Shown here: positions 1,030 to 8,943 of the stretch, in pieces | Layout: each line of letters opens with the position of its first letter | How positions within the stretch are numbered: position 1 is the first letter of the stretch | Assembly (NCBI GenBank): GCA_022508895.1 | Contig: JAFLUH010000012.1 | Location: 1-37,988 of the forward strand | Direction: 5' to 3' | DNA length: 37,988 bases | DNA from: Oscillospiraceae bacterium | Lineage (GTDB): Bacteria > Bacillota > Clostridia > Oscillospirales > Ruminococcaceae | Translations under genes and position numbers: made by a program | The notes under the pieces: model-generated | Database searches by the model: none | What the model saw: the letters and a program-made list of their open reading frames with translations, nothing else | What the model was told of the DNA's origin: nothing

Positions 1030-2082
1030 CTATGTCTTGATCCACTGCTTGTCCATCCACGCCAGACGCCCGTTGTAAACGACCTGAGCCCAAGTCCGGT
1101 CGCCCTCCTGCTCGGTTTCGCCCGTGAGATAAACGGTTTTTCCGACGTCCAAAGTGCCAAGCTTCTCCATGTTCACTCCCGGAGAGACCCTGACGTTGAC
1201 GGCCGTGACGGTCAGACCCATGGTGTAGGTGCCGTACTGCTCGAACTGCTTAGCTCCCGTGCCGCTCTCGTCGGTGAGAGCCGAATACAGATTGGTACCG
1301 GCGTGACGGAACCACTGCTGCGTGCCTGATGGGGGCGTCACAAGCTGAGACGCCGCATAGTAGCCGCCATTCACACAGTTTTCACCACTGAAGCCGTTCT
1401 TGTCGGCTCTTCTGCGTTTGGCGGCAGTGCCGAGAGAACGGTATATGGCGTTGCTGTCGGCAGCGATGGGAGCTTTTTGGGGCTGCTTATCGTAATCGAA
1501 ATAGCAGACGTCTCCGTCTACTTTCATGCCGCCTACCTTATCAAGCCCCCACTGCCACATCTTCTGACCGTAGTTGAATTTGCTGCTGGGCTTGTTCGGG
1601 TCTCCCGTCCAGCACGCAAGCCACAGGTCATATTTGCCCACGATCTTCGTTTTGTCCACATAGGTTTCCAGCCATGAAGGGTTGATGTATACGCCTGCGG
1701 TGTAGCCGTACTCCCTGATAATGTCGCAGAAGGTGGTTATGATAGCGGTGCGGGTCGCACTGTCCAGCTTATCTATCTGTTTCTGCTCCTCCATGTCGTA
1801 ATAGACGGGATATGCAGGGGCATAGCGGCCGATCGCACTCAGGCAGGCGTCCGCTTCCTTTTCGGCCTGCTCAACGGTGTAAGCCATGCTGTACCAGTAA
1901 AAGCCGTAAGGCAGACCTGCGTCGGCGGCTCCCTTCGTATGCCTGCCGAGCTGCGAGTCAACGCTTTCGGCACAGCCTGCACGGATTATCACATAATCCA
2001 TGCCTGCGTCCTTTACCGTCTTCAGGTCAAGCCCCTTCTGGCAGTAGCTGATGTCTAATCCTCTTTTCCTTGTACCTTCCAT
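1030..2082 (-). CDS. GH25 muramidase (lysozyme) with C-terminal SH3-type domain
   Basis: The N-terminal 200 residues match the glycoside hydrolase 25 fold, which cleaves the MurNAc-GlcNAc bond of peptidoglycan. The first catalytic Asp is in GLDIS (D10), the DxE pair is in YYDMEE (D96, E98), and the WLACWTG and WQWG segments typical of the barrel follow. Residues about 285-350 look like an SH3b wall-binding domain (VNVRVSPGVNMEKLGTLDVG). There is no signal peptide, so export needs lysis, a holin-like route or packaging. The start has AAGGAGG nine bases upstream. It is the last gene of the operon behind the putative invertible promoter, which suggests a role in cell lysis or wall opening. That role is inferred. 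Confidence 0.9.
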   Translation of the reverse strand: MEGTRKRGLDISYCQKGLDLKTVKDAGMDYVIIRAGCAESVDSQLGRHTKGAADAGLPYGFYWYSMAYTVEQAEKEADACLSAIGRYAPAYPVYYDMEEQKQIDKLDSATRTAIITTFCDIIREYGYTAGVYINPSWLETYVDKTKIVGKYDLWLACWTGDPNKPSSKFNYGQKMWQWGLDKVGGMKVDGDVCYFDYDKQPQKAPIAADSNAIYRSLGTAAKRRRADKNGFSGENCVNGGYYAASQLVTPPSGTQQWFRHAGTNLYSALTDESGTGAKQFEQYGTYTMGLTVTAVNVRVSPGVNMEKLGTLDVGKTVYLTGETEQEGDRTWAQVVYNGRLAWMDKQWIKT

Positions 2083-2103: not shown

Positions 2104-3144
2104 TCAGCTTTGAGTGTCGATCTCGATTTCCAGATTGCCTACTATATCAGTTCCGCCTGATATCTTCAGGGGATTGTTTGCAGGATATGCACCGTTTGAG
2201 GCTATTTCCCCGTAGGGAGCGCTGAGACCGTCGCATCTGAGTATAACGGGGGAATTGATATTTGTCAGATCCTTGTCGTAAATGGGCATTCCTGCCGCTA
2301 TCAGAATGTTTACGTCGGTTTTTTCTCCGTTGCAGAATATCGTTGAAAGAGGAGGCTGAGCAACGCCGCCAATTTTGACGGAAAAATCAAGACATATATC
2401 ATAAGTGAATTTCACGCCTTTAAATTCGGTGATGGGAGCGTACACATACTTTGTGTCCCTTTTTGCTTTTTCCCATTTTTTCGCAAGGCTGACGCCGTCT
2501 ATGTTGGAGGGGAAATACTTTGTCCATGTGTCTATGTGCTTTCCCGAATGGTAGATGTGCATGGTGTTGAAGGAGCTGTCCTTCGTGTGATCGCTTGCGT
2601 TTATTTGCTTCCATACGGTAGTGCCGGCAAAAAATATGAGATTTTTGTATCTGGCGGTGAGCACCGCAATAGGGTTGTCGGAGGTGCCGAGGTGATCCAT
2701 CACAACGTTTCCGTAAATCGCCTTGTGGTAGTATTTGTCTTCATTGAGGTGTTTCCGGTTGTCGTTTATATCATACCAGAAAAACTCCGGCAGTGCGGCG
2801 ACGATAACATAGTCGTTGGGCTTCTGCTCGTCGGTCTGCACCACGTTTTCGGGCAAATCGCCAATCACCTTGCCAAACAGACCGGCAGTCTCCGCCGAAA
2901 GCCTGTTTACCCACCTGATCTGCCTTTCCGCTTTCACCTTATGGAGAGCGTTGTAGTAATCGGCGAGCGCTTGGGCGCTTGCGTTGTCGCCGGGGTTTTT
3001 GTTCCGTTCCGCGTTTATCTTATCGGTGAGCTCCCGGATGTCGGGGTCATTCAAAAAATTTGCTTCAAGGTCATTTCTCCATGTTAAACCGAGTCTGTCA
3101 TTTTCACCGCCGTTGATAAAGGGCAGAAATATTATTTTTTTCAT
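2104..3144 (-). CDS. Nitrilase-superfamily (carbon-nitrogen hydrolase)-like protein
   Basis: The 346-aa protein carries what looks like the Glu-Lys-Cys triad of the nitrilase superfamily: E120 in VIVAALPEFFW, K209 in TWTKYF and C251 in YDICLDF. The spacing (89 and 42 residues) and the hydrophobic strand before each residue fit the family, and VNILIAAGMP follows like the usual strand after the Cys. Such enzymes hydrolyse nitriles or amides or transfer acyl groups. The substrate cannot be told, and an insertion between strands one and two (residues 20-105) makes it divergent. The ATG overlaps the upstream stop by four bases with GGAGG before it, so translation is probably coupled. It has no signal peptide. 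Confidence 0.55.
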   Translation of the reverse strand: MKKIIFLPFINGGENDRLGLTWRNDLEANFLNDPDIRELTDKINAERNKNPGDNASAQALADYYNALHKVKAERQIRWVNRLSAETAGLFGKVIGDLPENVVQTDEQKPNDYVIVAALPEFFWYDINDNRKHLNEDKYYHKAIYGNVVMDHLGTSDNPIAVLTARYKNLIFFAGTTVWKQINASDHTKDSSFNTMHIYHSGKHIDTWTKYFPSNIDGVSLAKKWEKAKRDTKYVYAPITEFKGVKFTYDICLDFSVKIGGVAQPPLSTIFCNGEKTDVNILIAAGMPIYDKDLTNINSPVILRCDGLSAPYGEIASNGAYPANNPLKISGGTDIVGNLEIEIDTQS

Positions 3145-3713
3145 TGGTTTTCCTCCGGATCGTACAGTCCCGACAGGGACATGGTTTTGTCAAAGATTAT
3201 TTTCGTGTTCAATGCGCCTGCAAGTCCCGCTATATGGACTACGATAGGCGCAAGCTCACCGTCACGGGAGGCGAGAGCCATTATCCCGCCCCCGTTCAGG
3301 CTTGCCGCTTCATATCCCTCCAGCTCTCCCTTCGCTTTCAGTCGGACGGTCACCTGACACGCCAGCTTCTCGCACTCGGCGAAAACCCTGCGGCTGTCCT
3401 CAAGGCAGCCGTTCACGCAGTCGTTGACCGCTTCAAGCTGTGAAAGTATGAAGCTCTTTTCCAATGCTCGGTACTCTCTACGGTTAAGCACGGTGTTTTC
3501 AGGCTTGGGCGCACCGCAGACAAGCTTGCCCCTTATGACGGAAAGCTGAGAAGCTATGGGGAGACGGTATTTTTCTGCGGCGGCTTCCAGCTTCCTTACA
3601 AAGCTTATGCTGTCATTTTTCAGCTCGGTCCCGTTTTTTTCAAGTATGTCTATAAGCCCCGACAGTTCGCTCAATATGCCGTCCATGCTCTCCATCACAG
3701 GTATAAGTATCAT
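3141..3713 (-). CDS. Hypothetical protein, 190 aa, helical
   Basis: I do not recognise this family. The sequence is mostly predicted helix with heptad-like Leu/Ile spacing in residues 1-130 (SELSGLIDILEKNGTEL, then EYRALEKSFILSQLEAV). A Gly-rich, more hydrophobic C-terminus follows (SLNGGGIMALASRDG, HIAGLAGAL). There is no signal peptide or clear membrane segment. The start has GAGGGAG five bases upstream. It sits between the DUF2589-like and nitrilase-like genes and is coupled to the latter through a four-base overlap. It probably acts with them, but nothing in the sequence fixes a function. Confidence 0.75.
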   Translation of the reverse strand: MILIPVMESMDGILSELSGLIDILEKNGTELKNDSISFVRKLEAAAEKYRLPIASQLSVIRGKLVCGAPKPENTVLNRREYRALEKSFILSQLEAVNDCVNGCLEDSRRVFAECEKLACQVTVRLKAKGELEGYEAASLNGGGIMALASRDGELAPIVVHIAGLAGALNTKIIFDKTMSLSGLYDPEENQ

Positions 3714-3732: not shown

Positions 3733-4578
3733 TCAGCTCAGAGACAAGAATCTTTGACCGCCGCTGCCTCTGCCGTCCTCCACTATCAGGTCAAGGTCCT
3801 GTTCCTTTATTTTCAGCGTTATGACCATCTGATTGTATATGCTGCCGTATTCGTTGATATTTCCTGTCCTTGGTTCCACATATACGCCCTTCTCTTTCTT
3901 GAGCATACGCTTGAACTCAAAGAACATCGCCTTTCCCGTTTCTGCTGCAAGCCCATCCAGTCCTTCCTCGTTTACAGGCTGATTTTCGGGCGGCAGTGAG
4001 CTGAGCTCTTCCCTTAAAACAAGTTTAAGATTTTTTATAAAGGCGTCCCTTATATCCAGCAGCTTTATCACCTCAAAGTTGGCAACGCTGAGAAACTTGT
4101 TCATAGGTTCCGCTACGTTTTCGGCAACGCGGTTTGCAGACTGCGCAAACGTCTCTTCCAGCTTGTCGCTCAGCTCTATGCCGTTTTCACCCAAGGGCGC
4201 GTCGTTATTGTCCATACCGCCGTCAGGAGTCGCTGCAGCCATTCTGTTCTGAGCCTCGGTCTTCAGCTCGTTTTTCCTTTTGTTGATATAGCTGTTGACA
4301 AACTGATTGTTCAGAATATGGGGCAGCTTCAGCTTTATGGCGCTTAAAACTATCTCACCCATGACCGATTTGCTGTTGTTGTCGGAGAGCACGCTTACCA
4401 CCGAAACGGGGAATTTTATCTCCGCCTCGTTGATGGTGAAATGGGGGACAGGCATTCCCTTTAAGAAAGGGTCTGCGTGATAGCTCTGGCTGAGCGCCGC
4501 GGAATTGGAATCGGCTATCTGCCTCGCATCGGAAATGTCCGATACAAGCTCGCCTATTAAATCACTTAGCATAACCAT
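3733..4578 (-). CDS. DUF2589-like companion protein, 281 aa
   Basis: The N-terminus (MLSDLIGELVSDISDARQIAD, then HADPFLKGMPVPHFTINEAEIKFPVSV) resembles proteins that travel with DUF2589 genes: a short helix, then 'DP-L-G-PVP' and strands of a beta-sandwich. The middle is helical and charged. The last 50 residues turn to strand (GSIYNQMVITLKIKEQDLDLIVEDG). Function is unknown for the whole family. It has no signal peptide or membrane segment. It is the second gene after the invertible promoter, 40 bases behind the DUF2589 gene, with GAGG eight to nine bases before the ATG. A second ATG two codons in is also possible. Confidence 0.65.
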   Translation of the reverse strand: MVMLSDLIGELVSDISDARQIADSNSAALSQSYHADPFLKGMPVPHFTINEAEIKFPVSVVSVLSDNNSKSVMGEIVLSAIKLKLPHILNNQFVNSYINKRKNELKTEAQNRMAAATPDGGMDNNDAPLGENGIELSDKLEETFAQSANRVAENVAEPMNKFLSVANFEVIKLLDIRDAFIKNLKLVLREELSSLPPENQPVNEEGLDGLAAETGKAMFFEFKRMLKKEKGVYVEPRTGNINEYGSIYNQMVITLKIKEQDLDLIVEDGRGSGGQRFLSLS

Positions 4579-4617: not shown

Positions 4618-5565
4618 TCACTTATTCTCGCCGCTGTTTTTCTGCTGCTTATCCGCAGGCTGCTCCGACTGAGCGCTGCTTGACGCCGGGAGCGCCTTTG
4701 TGGAAATGGAATCCTCAAGAATATCAAGTATTCTGGACATTCCGGAGGGGATATCGTCCTGTACGGCGTGCACCTTGATATTCAGCGAGTAGTCCTTCTT
4801 GACCTCCTCCCCGGAAGTGCTTTTCTTCTGGTGGGAAACGGAGGTCTTGAGGTTCGTTGAAGCCTTGAAGCCCCAGCCCTTGTAGCCGAAGTTGGAATCG
4901 GAGTCCACGTTGCTTTTTGAAATGTCGCTGGTGTTTGTGGTGCTGACAGAGTTGATCTTTACGTTGAACTCGATATCCGTGTAATCGATCTTGATAAAGG
5001 GAATGGGCATCATCGTAAGGATCGGGACCTCGATCTGCATCTTCTGATAGACAGCGGGAACGGGAGTTCCGGCTTCGATGACTGTCACTTTGAGCTTTGC
5101 TGAACCGCTCGAGCCTTCCTGAGCAACGGAAACCGTTTTGTTGTTCTCGAGCAGCGTTTCATCGAAGACCTTGGTCAGGCTGACCTTTGTGATGGCTCCT
5201 TCGCTGTTCACCTTGATCTCTGCCTCGGCAATGTCCTTGGAGTTGTCATCGGTTTTGATGATGACGGTCTTCTTATCGGAATAGCCGCTGCCTGCAGCGG
5301 TCACGTCAAGCTTGATCTCTCTTGTTCCCTGTACCTGAGAGGGAGATACCTCCTTGTCATAAGAAAAGGTCACACAGATGGGATCGCCTACGCCGACGGT
5401 GTCGCCCGTGTTGGGGTCCACCTCACCGGGCTTGAAGCCCACGCTTCTGACAAAATTCACCGTAGTTTCCGCTGATTCACGCTGGGCGTTTACCACGGCG
5501 TTGAGAGCGCCGCCGATTATCGCACTGAAATCTATCGACGAAATTTCTTCTGCGGGATTGAACAT
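4618..5565 (-). CDS. DUF2589 family protein, 315 aa
   Basis: The start MFNPAEE is chosen because AAGGAGG lies about ten bases upstream. A longer frame reaches 5619 but lacks a site and would begin inside the promoter region. The N-terminal helix (DFSAIIGGALNAVVNAQRESAETTVNFVRSVGF) is the hallmark of DUF2589. The family's function is not known. A beta-rich region follows, with an insert of about 90 residues (ITKVSLTKVFDETL and neighbours) that looks like a small repeat sandwich. The C-terminus is Ser/Gln/Lys-rich and probably disordered. It is the first gene downstream of the putative invertible promoter, so its expression would be the direct readout of promoter orientation. Confidence 0.75.
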   Translation of the reverse strand: MFNPAEEISSIDFSAIIGGALNAVVNAQRESAETTVNFVRSVGFKPGEVDPNTGDTVGVGDPICVTFSYDKEVSPSQVQGTREIKLDVTAAGSGYSDKKTVIIKTDDNSKDIAEAEIKVNSEGAITKVSLTKVFDETLLENNKTVSVAQEGSSGSAKLKVTVIEAGTPVPAVYQKMQIEVPILTMMPIPFIKIDYTDIEFNVKINSVSTTNTSDISKSNVDSDSNFGYKGWGFKASTNLKTSVSHQKKSTSGEEVKKDYSLNIKVHAVQDDIPSGMSRILDILEDSISTKALPASSSAQSEQPADKQQKNSGENK

Positions 5566-5605
5566 GGCTTTTTTCCTCCTTTTTTGTATTTGTGGTACCA
5601 CGGTC

Positions 5606-5627
5606 ACATTATACAACATTATATTGC
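5606..5627 (-). repeat. Left inverted repeat (recombinase core site, IRL)
   Basis: Read on the minus strand it is GCAATATAA-TGTTG-TATAATGT. It matches the right repeat at 18 of 22 positions, plus an AA pair two bases further out. The outer half carries a consensus TATAAT. The arm AATGCAATATAA recurs as the distal arm of the right site, as expected for two recombinase-binding arms around a short central spacer. Confidence 0.75.
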
Positions 5628-5644
5628 ATTCCCGCTTTGAGCCG

Positions 5645-5675
5645 AAAAGAAAAAAGCCCTGCAGCTGCGGCTTTC
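5645..5675 (-). terminator. Intrinsic terminator of the recombinase gene, inside the invertible segment
   Basis: On the minus strand, GAAAGCCGCAGCTGC and its partner AGGGCTTT form a hairpin (outer stem AAAGCC 5653-5658 with GGCTTT 5669-5674) that runs into TTTTTTCTTTTC. As sequenced it shields the DUF2589 operon from read-through. Inversion would turn it to the plus strand and remove that shield. Confidence 0.65.
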
Positions 5676-5739
5676 CGCAAGGTCACAGGACTTGTTTCCG
5701 TTTTAGGTGAAAAATTTTTTATTTTTTTTAAAAAATGGC

Positions 5740-5768
5740 TTGACAAACGCAAAATAGTGTTGTATTAT
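5740..5768 (+). promoter_or_regulatory. Near-consensus sigma-70 promoter facing the recombinase gene antisense
   Basis: TTGACA at 5740-5745, a 17-base spacer and TATTAT at 5763-5768, preceded by an A/T-rich stretch like an UP element. No plus-strand gene follows. The transcript would run antisense through the recombinase gene that begins its 3' end at 5798. This orientation makes sense only as one state of a switch or as antisense control. Confidence 0.75.
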
Positions 5769-5770
5769 AT
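5749..5770 (+). repeat. Right inverted repeat (recombinase core site, IRR)
   Basis: Read on the plus strand it is GCAAAATAG-TGTTG-TATTATAT. It is in inverted orientation relative to the left repeat, so recombination between them would invert the segment rather than delete it. The site itself is an imperfect dyad: arm GCAAAATA, spacer GTGTTG, arm TATTATATTGC. It overlaps the spacer and -10 box of the rightward promoter. Confidence 0.75.
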
Positions 5771-5797
5771 TGCATTTTTCGGCAGGAGCCGCAGCGT

Positions 5798-6631
5798 TCA
5801 CAGACCAAGCTTGTCCAGCTTTTTTCGCTGCGCTTCCCTGGACGTTCTTGTGTATATCCTTGTGGTCTCTATGGAGCTGTGTCCTAAGATGTCGGCAAGG
5901 TCAACTATGTTGTTGTAGACGCTCATATACGTTCTGGCAAACATGTGGCGGAAGTTGTGGGGGTAGACCTCGGCTTTGTTTACACCTGAGTCTGCCGCTA
6001 TCCTTTTCAGGTTCCTCCACACGACGGAGGGATCGACGGGAGCGGTCCTCTGCTTGTTCCGGAAAAGACTGCCGGAGGTTATCCCGCTTTCTTCGCAGTA
6101 TGTAAGGAGGAGCGCCCGCAGCTCGTCCGGAATAAGAATAGTCCTCAGCTTCGACTTGAAGAATATTTCCGCATAGCCTGCGGCTGCAGCTTCACGGGTG
6201 ATAAATCTCAGCTCACCCACCCGTATCCCCAGACCTCCCAAACAGCGCATTATGAGATACCATTTCCTGTCCCTGTAAGACAGCCTCGTGTGCTCAAGCA
6301 TGGCATGATAATCCGTCACGGACATTTCGCCTGATGAAAAATACGTCTTTTGCCGCCTCATCAGATTAAGGCACAGGTCCTCCCGTCCCAGCCAGCGGAA
6401 ATATCTGTTGGCAGAGATAAGGTAGGAATTGACCGCAGAGCTTTTGTACCTCGATATCAGATAGGATTTGTACGCCATAACGTCCTCAGGCTCCGCAGTG
6501 CGCTTGTTCAAAAAAGCAAACAGACGCTCGACGTCGCTGATGTACTTTTTTACCGTCAGTCGGCTCAGCTCCTGACTTATAAGGTATCGGCGGTACGCCA
6601 GCCCGTTGCTTTCACAGAAAATTTCGTGCAT
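5798..6631 (-). CDS. Tyrosine recombinase (XerC/D-like, putative DNA invertase)
   Basis: The 277-aa protein has an N-terminal SAM-like core-binding domain (residues 10-85) and a full catalytic domain. The catalytic residues are visible: R137 in GIRVGE, a Lys in the KSKL hairpin (159 or 161), H225 and R228 in HNFRHMFA, H251 in LGHSS and nucleophile Y260 in RIYTRT. At this length it resembles Xer-type and phase-variation recombinases rather than large phage integrases, which have an arm-binding domain. AAGAGGAG lies ten bases before the ATG. It ends 28 bases from the right inverted repeat, so inversion of the adjacent promoter is the most economical role. It could instead be a remnant integrase of an inserted element. 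Confidence 0.9.
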   Translation of the reverse strand: MHEIFCESNGLAYRRYLISQELSRLTVKKYISDVERLFAFLNKRTAEPEDVMAYKSYLISRYKSSAVNSYLISANRYFRWLGREDLCLNLMRRQKTYFSSGEMSVTDYHAMLEHTRLSYRDRKWYLIMRCLGGLGIRVGELRFITREAAAAGYAEIFFKSKLRTILIPDELRALLLTYCEESGITSGSLFRNKQRTAPVDPSVVWRNLKRIAADSGVNKAEVYPHNFRHMFARTYMSVYNNIVDLADILGHSSIETTRIYTRTSREAQRKKLDKLGL

Positions 6632-7062
6632 AACGAAAAAACTCCTCTTATTTATATTCTAAAATTCCCGAGAAGTTTAGTCGACAATGTTACGCTTAAA
6701 CGCATAAGGCAATTTTCGTTTTATTTCAAGCCGTCTTTCGGTTTTTCCCTGTCAGAAGCCAAATTTTTCCTTTTGTTTCTTGATTATACTACGGATAAAG
6801 CACGAAACGTGTCGAAGCGTGAAAGGCGATCGGTAATAATTACGGATTTTTTGTATTTTCGCTGTTTTGCGGCGGATATTTTTTCAATATTTTGGGGAAA
6901 GACTGCTTTTCGCATTTACGGAGGGGGACGATGTCGGATTTTATTTTTTCGGATAAAATAAAAAACCGCAAACTCCTTGTTTGCAGTTTTTGCTTCGCCC
7001 GTATCTCTGCGCTCATTCCGTCGGGAGCATTGACAGACACTTGTAAACGGTCGGGCCGCTTA
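6632..7062. other. Intergenic region between effector and recombinase genes (about 430 bp)
   Basis: This stretch holds no convincing gene. It contains the effector-gene terminator at its right end and an A/T-rich run around 6840-6960. The leader of the recombinase gene must start here. The best minus-strand match is TTGAAA-N17-TATGCG near 6697-6725, which is weak. No copy of the 22-bp inverted repeat is seen in it. Confidence 0.6.
6955..6991. terminator. Bidirectional intrinsic terminator downstream of the effector gene
   Basis: Stem CCGCAAAC (6966-6973) pairs with GTTTGCAG (6979-6986) around a TCCTT loop, with one mismatch. A5 lies on the left and T5 on the right, and the left A/T run continues on the minus strand as TTTTTTATTTT. 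It lies about 75 bases past the effector stop and closes the long injection-system operon. Confidence 0.75.
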
Positions 7063-8943
7063 CTAATACCTAATTTTAACGACCTCGACCCTGTCGATCA
7101 GGAGCTGCAGCAGGAGCTGTGTATCTCCTGTAGCTCCGGTTGCAACACATAAGCTATAGGTGGGTTTGGACACTCCTTTGCCTTTACTGCCTTTTGAGGC
7201 GCCCTTATCTCTGACCTGTTCATGTTTGATACCGATATAGCCCCGAAGTACTCCTTCATTCAATGACGACCTTTGGAAAGGGTCCCATCTTTTATCATTC
7301 CACATTCTGATCGACGCCGGCGGTACAGCTATCAAAGAAGGTGAAAAAAGCAACTCCGATGCGCCCGGCTTTAATATAAACGCAAGGGTTACAAGGGCAT
7401 AGTTGGGCTTGTCATCCGAAAAGGGTCTGACAACGTCGTATTCCATCGCCTGCTCATATTCGCCAAAGTGTTTTCCAAATTCAGCTATCAGCGGATTGGA
7501 CCGATTTTCCGACATTTCAAAAGATCCTTCAATGATTTTTTCCTCTGCTTCTGCGGCTTTGCCTGAATCAAAAAAGCAGAGGATCGGAATTGCCTTCTCT
7601 GCATCCATGCTTCTGTATATCACAAGTTTTTCCTGCGAGCTTGTTTCTTGCAGACTGAGCAAAAGATTCCTTGCCGTTATTTTGTCAAAATCAGGATATC
7701 TTTTAGGTTTTCCCGTTTCATCGAATAAATTTCTTCTGACAGTGCAGCGCTCTGTTATTTTATTGGGAAGATCTTCTAAAGAAGGCAGCGCAGTCTCCTG
7801 CAGTTTTTCTCTGGCATAGGCGCCCGGAAGTCCCGTACTTTGCACCCTTTCCGCGGAAATGATGTCTATAGGCCCTGTCTCGCTGAAAATCCCCAAAATT
7901 TCATTAAAGAAGTTTATTTGTGCATTCAACTCATCCAGAATCTTATCGATTATATAACGGTCATGCATAAAGCGACGGCACAGGTTTTTATAGTTGATTA
8001 TTAACGATCCGATCAATGTAGCCAGCCGGCTTTTCCTCTCTTTGTTCCCGTTCTCACGGGAGATTTCGTAAATATCGTCTCTCAGTTTCGTTATACCTTC
8101 TCTTAAATAATCATACAGCATCGCTGCCTGAGGAGCTTGAGCACCGGATCCTGCATTATGCTCTATATGAAACAGTATGAATACCTTCTCCGCCTTTTTA
8201 TAATAGTCACTTTTTTTATCCTGTTCGTCCATGATTTCCCCTGCCGCCTCAACAAGCCATTCACAAAGCTGACTGCACATTGCGGATAAAATTTTGGCAG
8301 CATCAGCTCCCCAGCCATCCACAAGATCAATTACACCGTACTTGATATCTTCTTCAGCTGCATCACATATTTCTTTGCTTATTACAGTGATCAGGTCCGG
8401 CTCCTTAAGTTTTGGCAGAAGCTCAAAAAGCTCGTATTTCGATAATTCTTTTGTGTCTATACGCCCCTCGACCGATTCTTCACATTTTACCAGCAAACCG
8501 CCTTGTTCCGGACTTTCATACATGAGAAAAACACCTTGTACGATTTCCTGCCCGCCTTCACGGACTGTCCTGTCAAATGTGACAGTTCCGCTCTCTGCCT
8601 GCTGTTCCAGCCTGCGATCAGTATTGACCGGCAATCCGTTGATATATGTATTCGGTCTCACAAGCCCGCGTTTCTGCTGGATCACATGACCCAGCTCGTG
8701 CCCCAGATGCTTTTCCTGTCCGCGGCCGATGTATACATGATTTCCCTTGGTATATGCCAATGCCCCGAGCTTGGCGGGTTCCGCTGAATTATAATGCACT
8801 CTCACGTCATCGAAAGACAGACCGCTGGCCGCCTCATAGCGGTTTTTGACGGGTGCGGGGATACCGGTCAGATTTTTGTTGTTTGAATTTGTCTTAGTAT
8901 CAGAGTTTTTCTTCTGTAAGGGCGCATACTGCTCTGCGTACAT
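7063..8943 (-). CDS. DUF4157 protein, putative injected effector with ART-like C-terminus
   Basis: Residues about 30-120 form a DUF4157 domain: PVKNRYEAASGLSFDDVRVHYNS, YTKGNHVYIGRG, HELGH at 82-86 (HExxH zinc-protease signature) and RRLEQQAES. DUF4157 is a known mark of eCIS cargo proteins, where it acts as a releasing or loading module. A helical middle (180-355) follows. The C-terminal 220 residues contain LVIYRSM (R444) and GKHFGEYEQAMEY (491-502) ahead of hydrophobic strands, which is reminiscent of ADP-ribosyltransferase-type toxins. I rate that part only moderate. AAAGGAG sits eight bases upstream of the ATG. By eye the gene is more A/T-rich than the structural genes, as often seen for swapped-in cargo. 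No immunity gene is evident next to it. Confidence 0.8.
   Translation of the reverse strand: MYAEQYAPLQKKNSDTKTNSNNKNLTGIPAPVKNRYEAASGLSFDDVRVHYNSAEPAKLGALAYTKGNHVYIGRGQEKHLGHELGHVIQQKRGLVRPNTYINGLPVNTDRRLEQQAESGTVTFDRTVREGGQEIVQGVFLMYESPEQGGLLVKCEESVEGRIDTKELSKYELFELLPKLKEPDLITVISKEICDAAEEDIKYGVIDLVDGWGADAAKILSAMCSQLCEWLVEAAGEIMDEQDKKSDYYKKAEKVFILFHIEHNAGSGAQAPQAAMLYDYLREGITKLRDDIYEISRENGNKERKSRLATLIGSLIINYKNLCRRFMHDRYIIDKILDELNAQINFFNEILGIFSETGPIDIISAERVQSTGLPGAYAREKLQETALPSLEDLPNKITERCTVRRNLFDETGKPKRYPDFDKITARNLLLSLQETSSQEKLVIYRSMDAEKAIPILCFFDSGKAAEAEEKIIEGSFEMSENRSNPLIAEFGKHFGEYEQAMEYDVVRPFSDDKPNYALVTLAFILKPGASELLFSPSLIAVPPASIRMWNDKRWDPFQRSSLNEGVLRGYIGIKHEQVRDKGASKGSKGKGVSKPTYSLCVATGATGDTQLLLQLLIDRVEVVKIRY

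Follow-up and report, generated by a model that had tools for sequence, protein, structure and literature searches.

A short intergenic region in the genome of an Oscillospiraceae bacterium (assembly GCA_022508895.1, contig JAFLUH010000012.1) is, with a probability that we put at roughly 85%, a promoter-assembly inversion switch flipped by the tyrosine recombinase encoded next to it. It lies between the recombinase gene and a five-gene operon that begins with a DUF2589 gene; coordinates below refer to the whole stretch of 37,988 nucleotides that was analysed, hereafter the window. The evidence is strong both for a real, conserved and switch-like region and, at the level of the wider recombinase family, for inversion. 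Recombinase gene, two recombination sites and operon occur in the same order in six species: the window's own and those of loci L040 (L125, from G328), L041 (within L126, from G320), L042, L127 (G482) and L128 (G158). L041 belongs to the isolate Ruminococcus sp. Marseille-P6503. The parts of the locus in the window are as follows.

5749..5770, forward strand: recombination site 1, adjoining the recombinase gene, with core GTTGT at 5759-5763
5606..5627, reverse strand: recombination site 2, adjoining the operon, with core ACAAC at 5613-5617
5618..5758, no strand: predicted invertible segment, core to core, 141 bp
5740..5745, forward strand: −35 hexamer TTGACA within the segment, facing the recombinase gene as sequenced, identical in all six species
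5763..5768, forward strand: −10 hexamer TATTAT in site 1, now pairing with TTGACA (TATTAC in L127)
5608..5613, reverse strand: −10 hexamer TATAAT, operon-facing and located in the outer arm of site 2 that stays in place
5645..5693, reverse strand: intrinsic-terminator-like hairpin within the segment, oriented in the direction recombinase gene to operon
5593..5600, no strand: palindrome TGGTACCA, directly past the predicted ON start site, read from the sequence comparison
5575..5581, reverse strand: ribosome-binding site AAGGAGG of the DUF2589 gene
5798..6631, reverse strand: tyrosine recombinase, 277 aa, the proposed inverter (Pfam Phage_integrase, 1.4e-14)

The two 22-bp inverted repeats lie where an earlier note on this DNA had placed them, match at 18 of 22 positions in inverted orientation and share an exact core, GTTGT/ACAAC. 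The arrangement that the note had described as an OFF state was recovered to the base: TTGACA stands 17 bases from TATTAT and the pair faces away from the operon, and the TATAAT of site 2 faces the operon with AGCGGG upstream of it, i.e. with no −35 box. Inverting the segment in silico turns the operon side from a 6/12 match to the consensus into TTGACA-N17-TATAAT, a 12/12 match aimed at the DUF2589 gene, which is the product that had been foreseen for a crossover in the core. With the DUF2589 start codon at 5565 and the ribosome site at 5575-5581, the predicted ON transcript has a leader of about 36 bases containing AAGGAGG, again as claimed; a longer DUF2589 reading frame starting at 5619 was judged not to be used.

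In the mechanism that we propose, the recombinase would exchange strands at the ACAAC/GTTGT cores and so flip the 141-bp segment. In the OFF orientation, the one sequenced, the −35 hexamer of the segment would pair with the −10 of site 1 and point antisense into the recombinase gene, and the terminator of the segment would insulate the operon from read-through out of that gene. In the inverted, ON orientation, a 17-base spacer would separate the −35 from the stationary TATAAT of site 2, creating a consensus promoter for the operon, i.e. for the genes of the DUF2589, DUF2589-like, 190-aa, nitrilase-fold and cell-wall hydrolase proteins. Judging from sequence, the window's own locus would be expected to flip, and to do so through its own recombinase; we infer the function of the predicted promoters and terminator, and any effect on the cell, in the same way.

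Both sites, the 17-base spacing that the note had seen in either orientation and the overall layout are kept in all six species that have recombinase and operon together. The cores are 131-215 bp apart, and in an alignment of four of the species sites 1 and 2 stand out as conserved islands amid poorly aligned DNA. Loss of the repeats with retention of the flanking genes, which the note had named as a sign against a switch, was looked for in the six species and did not occur. As sequenced, the operon-facing promoter match is 6-8/12 across the six species and the recombinase-facing one 10-11/12 in all of them; after in silico inversion, the operon-facing match reaches 12/12 in five species and 11/12 in L127 (all matches being scored at one position and one spacing, 17, only). 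The TATAAT of site 2 is present in five of the six. The terminator-like hairpin (−20.7 kcal/mol for the piece tested, followed by TTTTCTTT) has counterparts that pass the same filter in the segments of five of the six species, the hairpin of L041 failing it through a weaker T tract. Past site 2, the palindrome is kept in all six species, as TGGTACCA in five and as TGGTAATTACCA in L040; it is a possible operator.

Taken by itself, the window's repeat is well above chance, not overwhelmingly so. First-order shuffling of the 232-bp intergenic region reaches it in 0 and 2 of 300 trials under two scorings, a standard repeat finder with a 9-base seed does not list it, and this copy (L069) scores below 15, the threshold used for repeats in the family. 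What makes it secure is its conservation in five more species, whose own repeats are reached by 0 or 1 of 300 shuffles.

The relatives came from a contig scan with the recombinase, which yielded three loci, and from searches of the family and the order (396 and 394 genomes drawn), which yielded further orthologues. No additional operon copies turned up when the genera of three relatives and the family of a fourth were searched. One more locus, L129 (G449), was seen with the recombinase orthologue only and was counted neither for nor against the switch; by eye, its downstream side runs into a transposase-start-like sequence and then the contig end. The module is patchy: among 71 genomes of the window's genus a single one gave a strong DUF2589 match, and in three other genera the count was 1 of 16, 1 of 15 and 1 of 20. 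A class-wide search of 391 genomes for the site-2 pattern, allowing up to two mismatches, hit 13 genomes at 14 places, of which the one in the window matched exactly and the other 13 had two mismatches each. In viral contigs, a scan with the recombinase alignment gave 29 pattern matches and no relative, and a scan for the site-2 pattern gave nothing. Plasmids contained two partial matches, to the DUF2589 part only and covering 35-36% of the query. Among phages, 23 records matched the recombinase, all at less than 60% identity and at 33% or less among the ten matches listed.

Evidence for inversion itself comes from the wider family of related recombinases. After removal of the duplicates L106, L116 and L120 and of the window copy L069, this set held 148 loci, consisting of the displayed loci plus 80 picked from the remaining listed matches rather than of all matches; 13 of them were dropped (no recombinase open reading frame, or less than 250 bp past its stop), which left 135 for analysis. 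The recombinase was placed by a hidden Markov model (HMM), and the best inverted repeat within 900 bp past its stop was taken, with a threshold score of 15. At this threshold, a repeat follows the recombinase gene in 116 of the 135 loci (112 of 131 without four loci of the six-species clade), in none of the 135 shuffled regions and in none of the 19 loci that could be analysed among 23 with other tyrosine recombinases. In the 116 loci, site 1 starts between 10 bp before and 136 bp after the stop codon, with a median of 13.

The sites can also be recognised by their arms alone (CATAAT-N4-ATTATG, up to two mismatches). Exactly two such sites are found in 86 of the 131 non-clade loci, and none in the 19 control loci. 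In 85 of these 86 loci, the two sites have the same spacer in inverted orientation, with 55 different spacers in all; dealing the spacers between loci at random gave a mean of 2.0 matches and a maximum of 8. Matched inverted spacers are what strand exchange between two sites demands. The family site is of the type ATAAT-spacer-ATTAT with a 4-base spacer, and that of the clade is ACAAC/GTTGT with a spacer of 5. Loci L003-L015 and L073-L228 of the related family mostly carry an inverted-repeat promoter segment directly past the recombinase stop, and some genomes hold several recombinase copies, such as G041 with seven strong matches.

Both orientations are represented in the family. Among the 112 repeat-bearing non-clade loci, promoter calling scored 18 as ON and 56 as OFF and left 38 ambiguous. 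Homologous segments could be aligned over at least 100 bp in 36 pairs, which are not independent of one another, and seven of these are in opposite orientation; the flanks were checked for six of the seven, leaving out L085/L182. In L187/L188 and L184/L187, all from one genus, the recombinase gene and the downstream DNA are collinear at about 90% and the segment is reversed, at 85% and 81%, respectively. The segments of L105 and L111 have the same orientation, with the recombinase placed by HMM. The note had suggested related genomes as a place to look for the reversed segment; reversed segments were found in the wider family only, and none in the six species, each represented by one assembly. 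A quick tree built from 165 recombinases puts the seven clade members (the six and L072) into one group (SH-like approximate likelihood ratio test 99), next to a group of 141 rows in which all other family rows except two are found; several long control branches were flagged as possible false joins, and the deeper joins of this tree are unsure.

Clade and family differ in where the promoter sits. In the related family, the whole promoter lies within the segment: its −10 ends 6-66 bp inside the repeat in the 74 callable loci of 112, and 20-66 bp inside in 72 of these 74. In the clade, unlike the family, the promoter straddles the recombination site. A promoter straddling site 2 with a score of at least 12 is found in 4/4 clade loci tested (in inverted form) versus 1/112 others, and the single case among the latter, L015, also has a perfect inside promoter. 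With the −10 of the clade located in a stationary recombination arm, inversion would assemble a promoter rather than turn one round. A literature search of open-licence papers did not find a split invertible promoter described.

Several observations weigh against a working switch. All six clade loci are OFF and none is ON, with one assembly per species, and the window's own genome holds one copy in one orientation. The arms of the window's 22-bp repeats are imperfect, differing at 4 of 22 positions, and L127 has TATTAT at site 2 instead of TATAAT. Within the family, 19 of the 135 loci lack a repeat at the threshold, and four of the six opposite pairs checked show no similarity in the 600 bp past site 2, leaving only two with collinear flanks on both sides. 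That no clade locus is ON counts only weakly against switching because the family, too, is mostly OFF: at its OFF share of 56/74, the chance of finding six of six OFF is about 0.19. As to the earlier claim that the operon is phase-variable, its mechanism is supported by the spacer matching, the repeats and the two reversed pairs of the family; since 0/6 clade loci are flipped, phase variation at this locus is something that we infer.

The uniform orientation of the six clade loci and their recombinase-facing promoter matches of 10-11/12 could also be read as those of a fixed, non-inverting control region, in which the recombinase would act as an autorepressor binding both sites and the promoter would make antisense RNA against the recombinase. 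We consider this improbable, as it leaves unexplained why it takes inversion to place the −35 at a distance of 17 bases from a perfect operon −10, why the operon −10 is retained without a −35, and why spacers match and segments are reversed in the related family. Less probable still is a former switch that is now locked OFF through repeat decay. The four differing positions among 22 and the six OFF loci would agree with such decay, but the adjacent recombinase gene is intact, with residues R137, K161, H225, R228, H251 and Y260, which we take to be catalytic, invariant in an alignment of four rows. Moreover, all six species retain the core and both half-promoters, with clade recombinases that share 55-61% identity with that of the window. 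Attachment sites of an integrated mobile element, a notion that the integrase/Xer-type family matches of the recombinase and the patchiness of the module might favour, are very improbable, given that the cores are inverted rather than direct, so that exchange should invert and not excise, that only 131-215 bp separate them in the six species and that the operon is on the same side in all six.

The inversion switch may also be part of a larger design, to which we give somewhat less than even odds: a self-contained, patchy phase-variable module in which inversion builds the promoter, antisense RNA and an RNA leader provide a feedback loop between switch and inverter, and an undescribed DUF2589/nitrilase-fold/cell-wall-hydrolase cluster is what is controlled. 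In this version, the −10 would be embedded in the recombinase's own binding arm, the −35 in its OFF orientation would drive antisense RNA into the recombinase gene and the leader would hide the ribosome site of the recombinase. The leader in question is the following.

6655..6680, reverse strand: leader element CTAAACTTCTCGAGAATTTAGAATA, directly before the recombinase start, able to pair with the recombinase ribosome site

This element is kept with small changes in six of six clade members with upstream DNA (the window and L125-L129), and other family loci and control loci differ from it by at least nine mismatches. In five folds, its ACUUCUC can pair with the recombinase ribosome site GAGGAGU; the leader folds that stand out from shuffles are those of L128 (z −4.0) and the window (z −2.05) only. 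L125 has a paired change in the CUAAA/UUUAG stem, and Rfam gave no match across window positions 5500-7080, the leader included. In L041, an extra core-like sequence, TGTTGTATAAT, lies upstream of the recombinase at 5808 (9475 in L126) and may serve as a binding site within the promoter of the recombinase gene itself; neither the window nor any other clade locus scanned showed a pattern of the TGTTGTATAAT type upstream of the recombinase.

The operon that the switch would control consists of five genes.

4618..5565, reverse strand: DUF2589 protein, 315 aa, first operon gene (PF11655, 7.9e-25)
3733..4578, reverse strand: second protein, 281 aa, with a weak DUF2589-like stretch (PF11655, E 0.024, below cut-off), synteny conserved
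3141..3713, reverse strand: conserved 190-aa protein with no family match, synteny conserved
2104..3144, reverse strand: nitrilase-fold protein, 346 aa, by structural model
1030..2082, reverse strand: GH25 lysozyme-like cell-wall hydrolase with SH3 domain, last operon gene (PF01183, 2.6e-22)

The last gene encodes a GH25 protein in the window, L125 and L042 and a CHAP protein in L126, L127 and L128, and in PHROGs the GH25 protein matches endolysins. The 346-aa protein models as a nitrilase fold, and a sequence search of its family against solved structures gave nothing significant; the structural model of the DUF2589 protein is poor (mean predicted local distance difference test score, pLDDT, of 50.8). 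NCBIfam gave no above-cut-off match to the operon proteins, PADLOC none to the six proteins searched, and Pfam, NCBIfam, PHROGs and PADLOC, searched at the chosen limits, returned nothing for the 190-aa protein. A literature search for DUF2589 returned a match that, by its title, concerned archaeal energy metabolism. Since a cell-wall hydrolase here keeps company with nitrilase-fold and DUF2589 proteins, our guess, at low confidence, is that the operon makes an envelope-active or lysis-linked product in a minority of cells.

All 29 open reading frames taken as genes in the window, from 1030 to 37653, point leftward, and read in that direction they form an injection system, the recombinase, the switch and the five-gene operon. 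The extracellular contractile injection system (eCIS; 7063-37653, reverse strand) comprises an AAA ATPase, sheath, tubes, gp25, baseplate V and J, a Pvc16-like protein and an eCIS core protein. The genes between the Pvc16-like and eCIS core genes include one that is ABC substrate-binding-like and one whose dCache match falls below cut-off, and a MORN-repeat gene is found directly upstream of the Pvc16-like gene. A switch dedicated to the injection system was also weighed and not retained: what looks by eye like a terminator separates the eCIS gene from the recombinase gene, and the CIS tube family PF19266 was found in one of seven genomes searched, the window's own. Of the other six, five carry the module and G449 was seen with the recombinase orthologue only. 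As the CIS tube gene is thus confined to the window's genome among the seven, the module is not tied to the injection system.

If the inversion reading is correct, the locus would offer a clean, testable case of inversion assembling a promoter, with recombination site and promoter sharing sequence, and an unstudied operon in six species of different genera would be marked as likely phase-variable. Beyond the clade, most recombinases of a large related group in the order carry an inverted-repeat segment directly past their own gene, with a matched, variable spacer. Such a segment beside a recombinase gene makes switches of this kind easy to find in draft genomes.

Among known systems, the related recombinase family resembles an inverton group described in PMC11892184. 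There, inverton group 139 comprises 33 invertons, 32 of them from the class Clostridia, is linked to one tyrosine-type recombinase group, invertase group 35, encoded nearby, and shows orientation shifts in read data from cultures (PMC11892184). Two published coordinates imply inverton lengths of 255 and 257 bp (PMC11892184), which fall within the roughly 222-471 bp of the family (outer to outer, four clade loci excluded). The related family is, we think, probably group 139, the likeness covering class, recombinase type and length. The window's clade branches separately, its segment is shorter and its promoter is divided by the recombination site.

The invertible promoters of gut Bacteroidales and others likewise combine inverted repeats, a recombinase and an orientation-dependent promoter. 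There the promoter lies within the invertible segment, whereas only the −35 lies within the segment of the window. Such promoters are the subject of Jiang et al. (2019). The joining of separate −35 and −10 elements by recombination is shared with the junction promoters of IS911/IS30-type circles, in which the two elements sit on different DNA ends and are joined into one promoter. Those junctions arise by transposase-driven circularisation and not by reversible inversion; for the window, reversible inversion is proposed instead. Tyrosine-recombinase-linked invertons of Clostridia are a known kind, and the promoter split across the recombination site is the variant.
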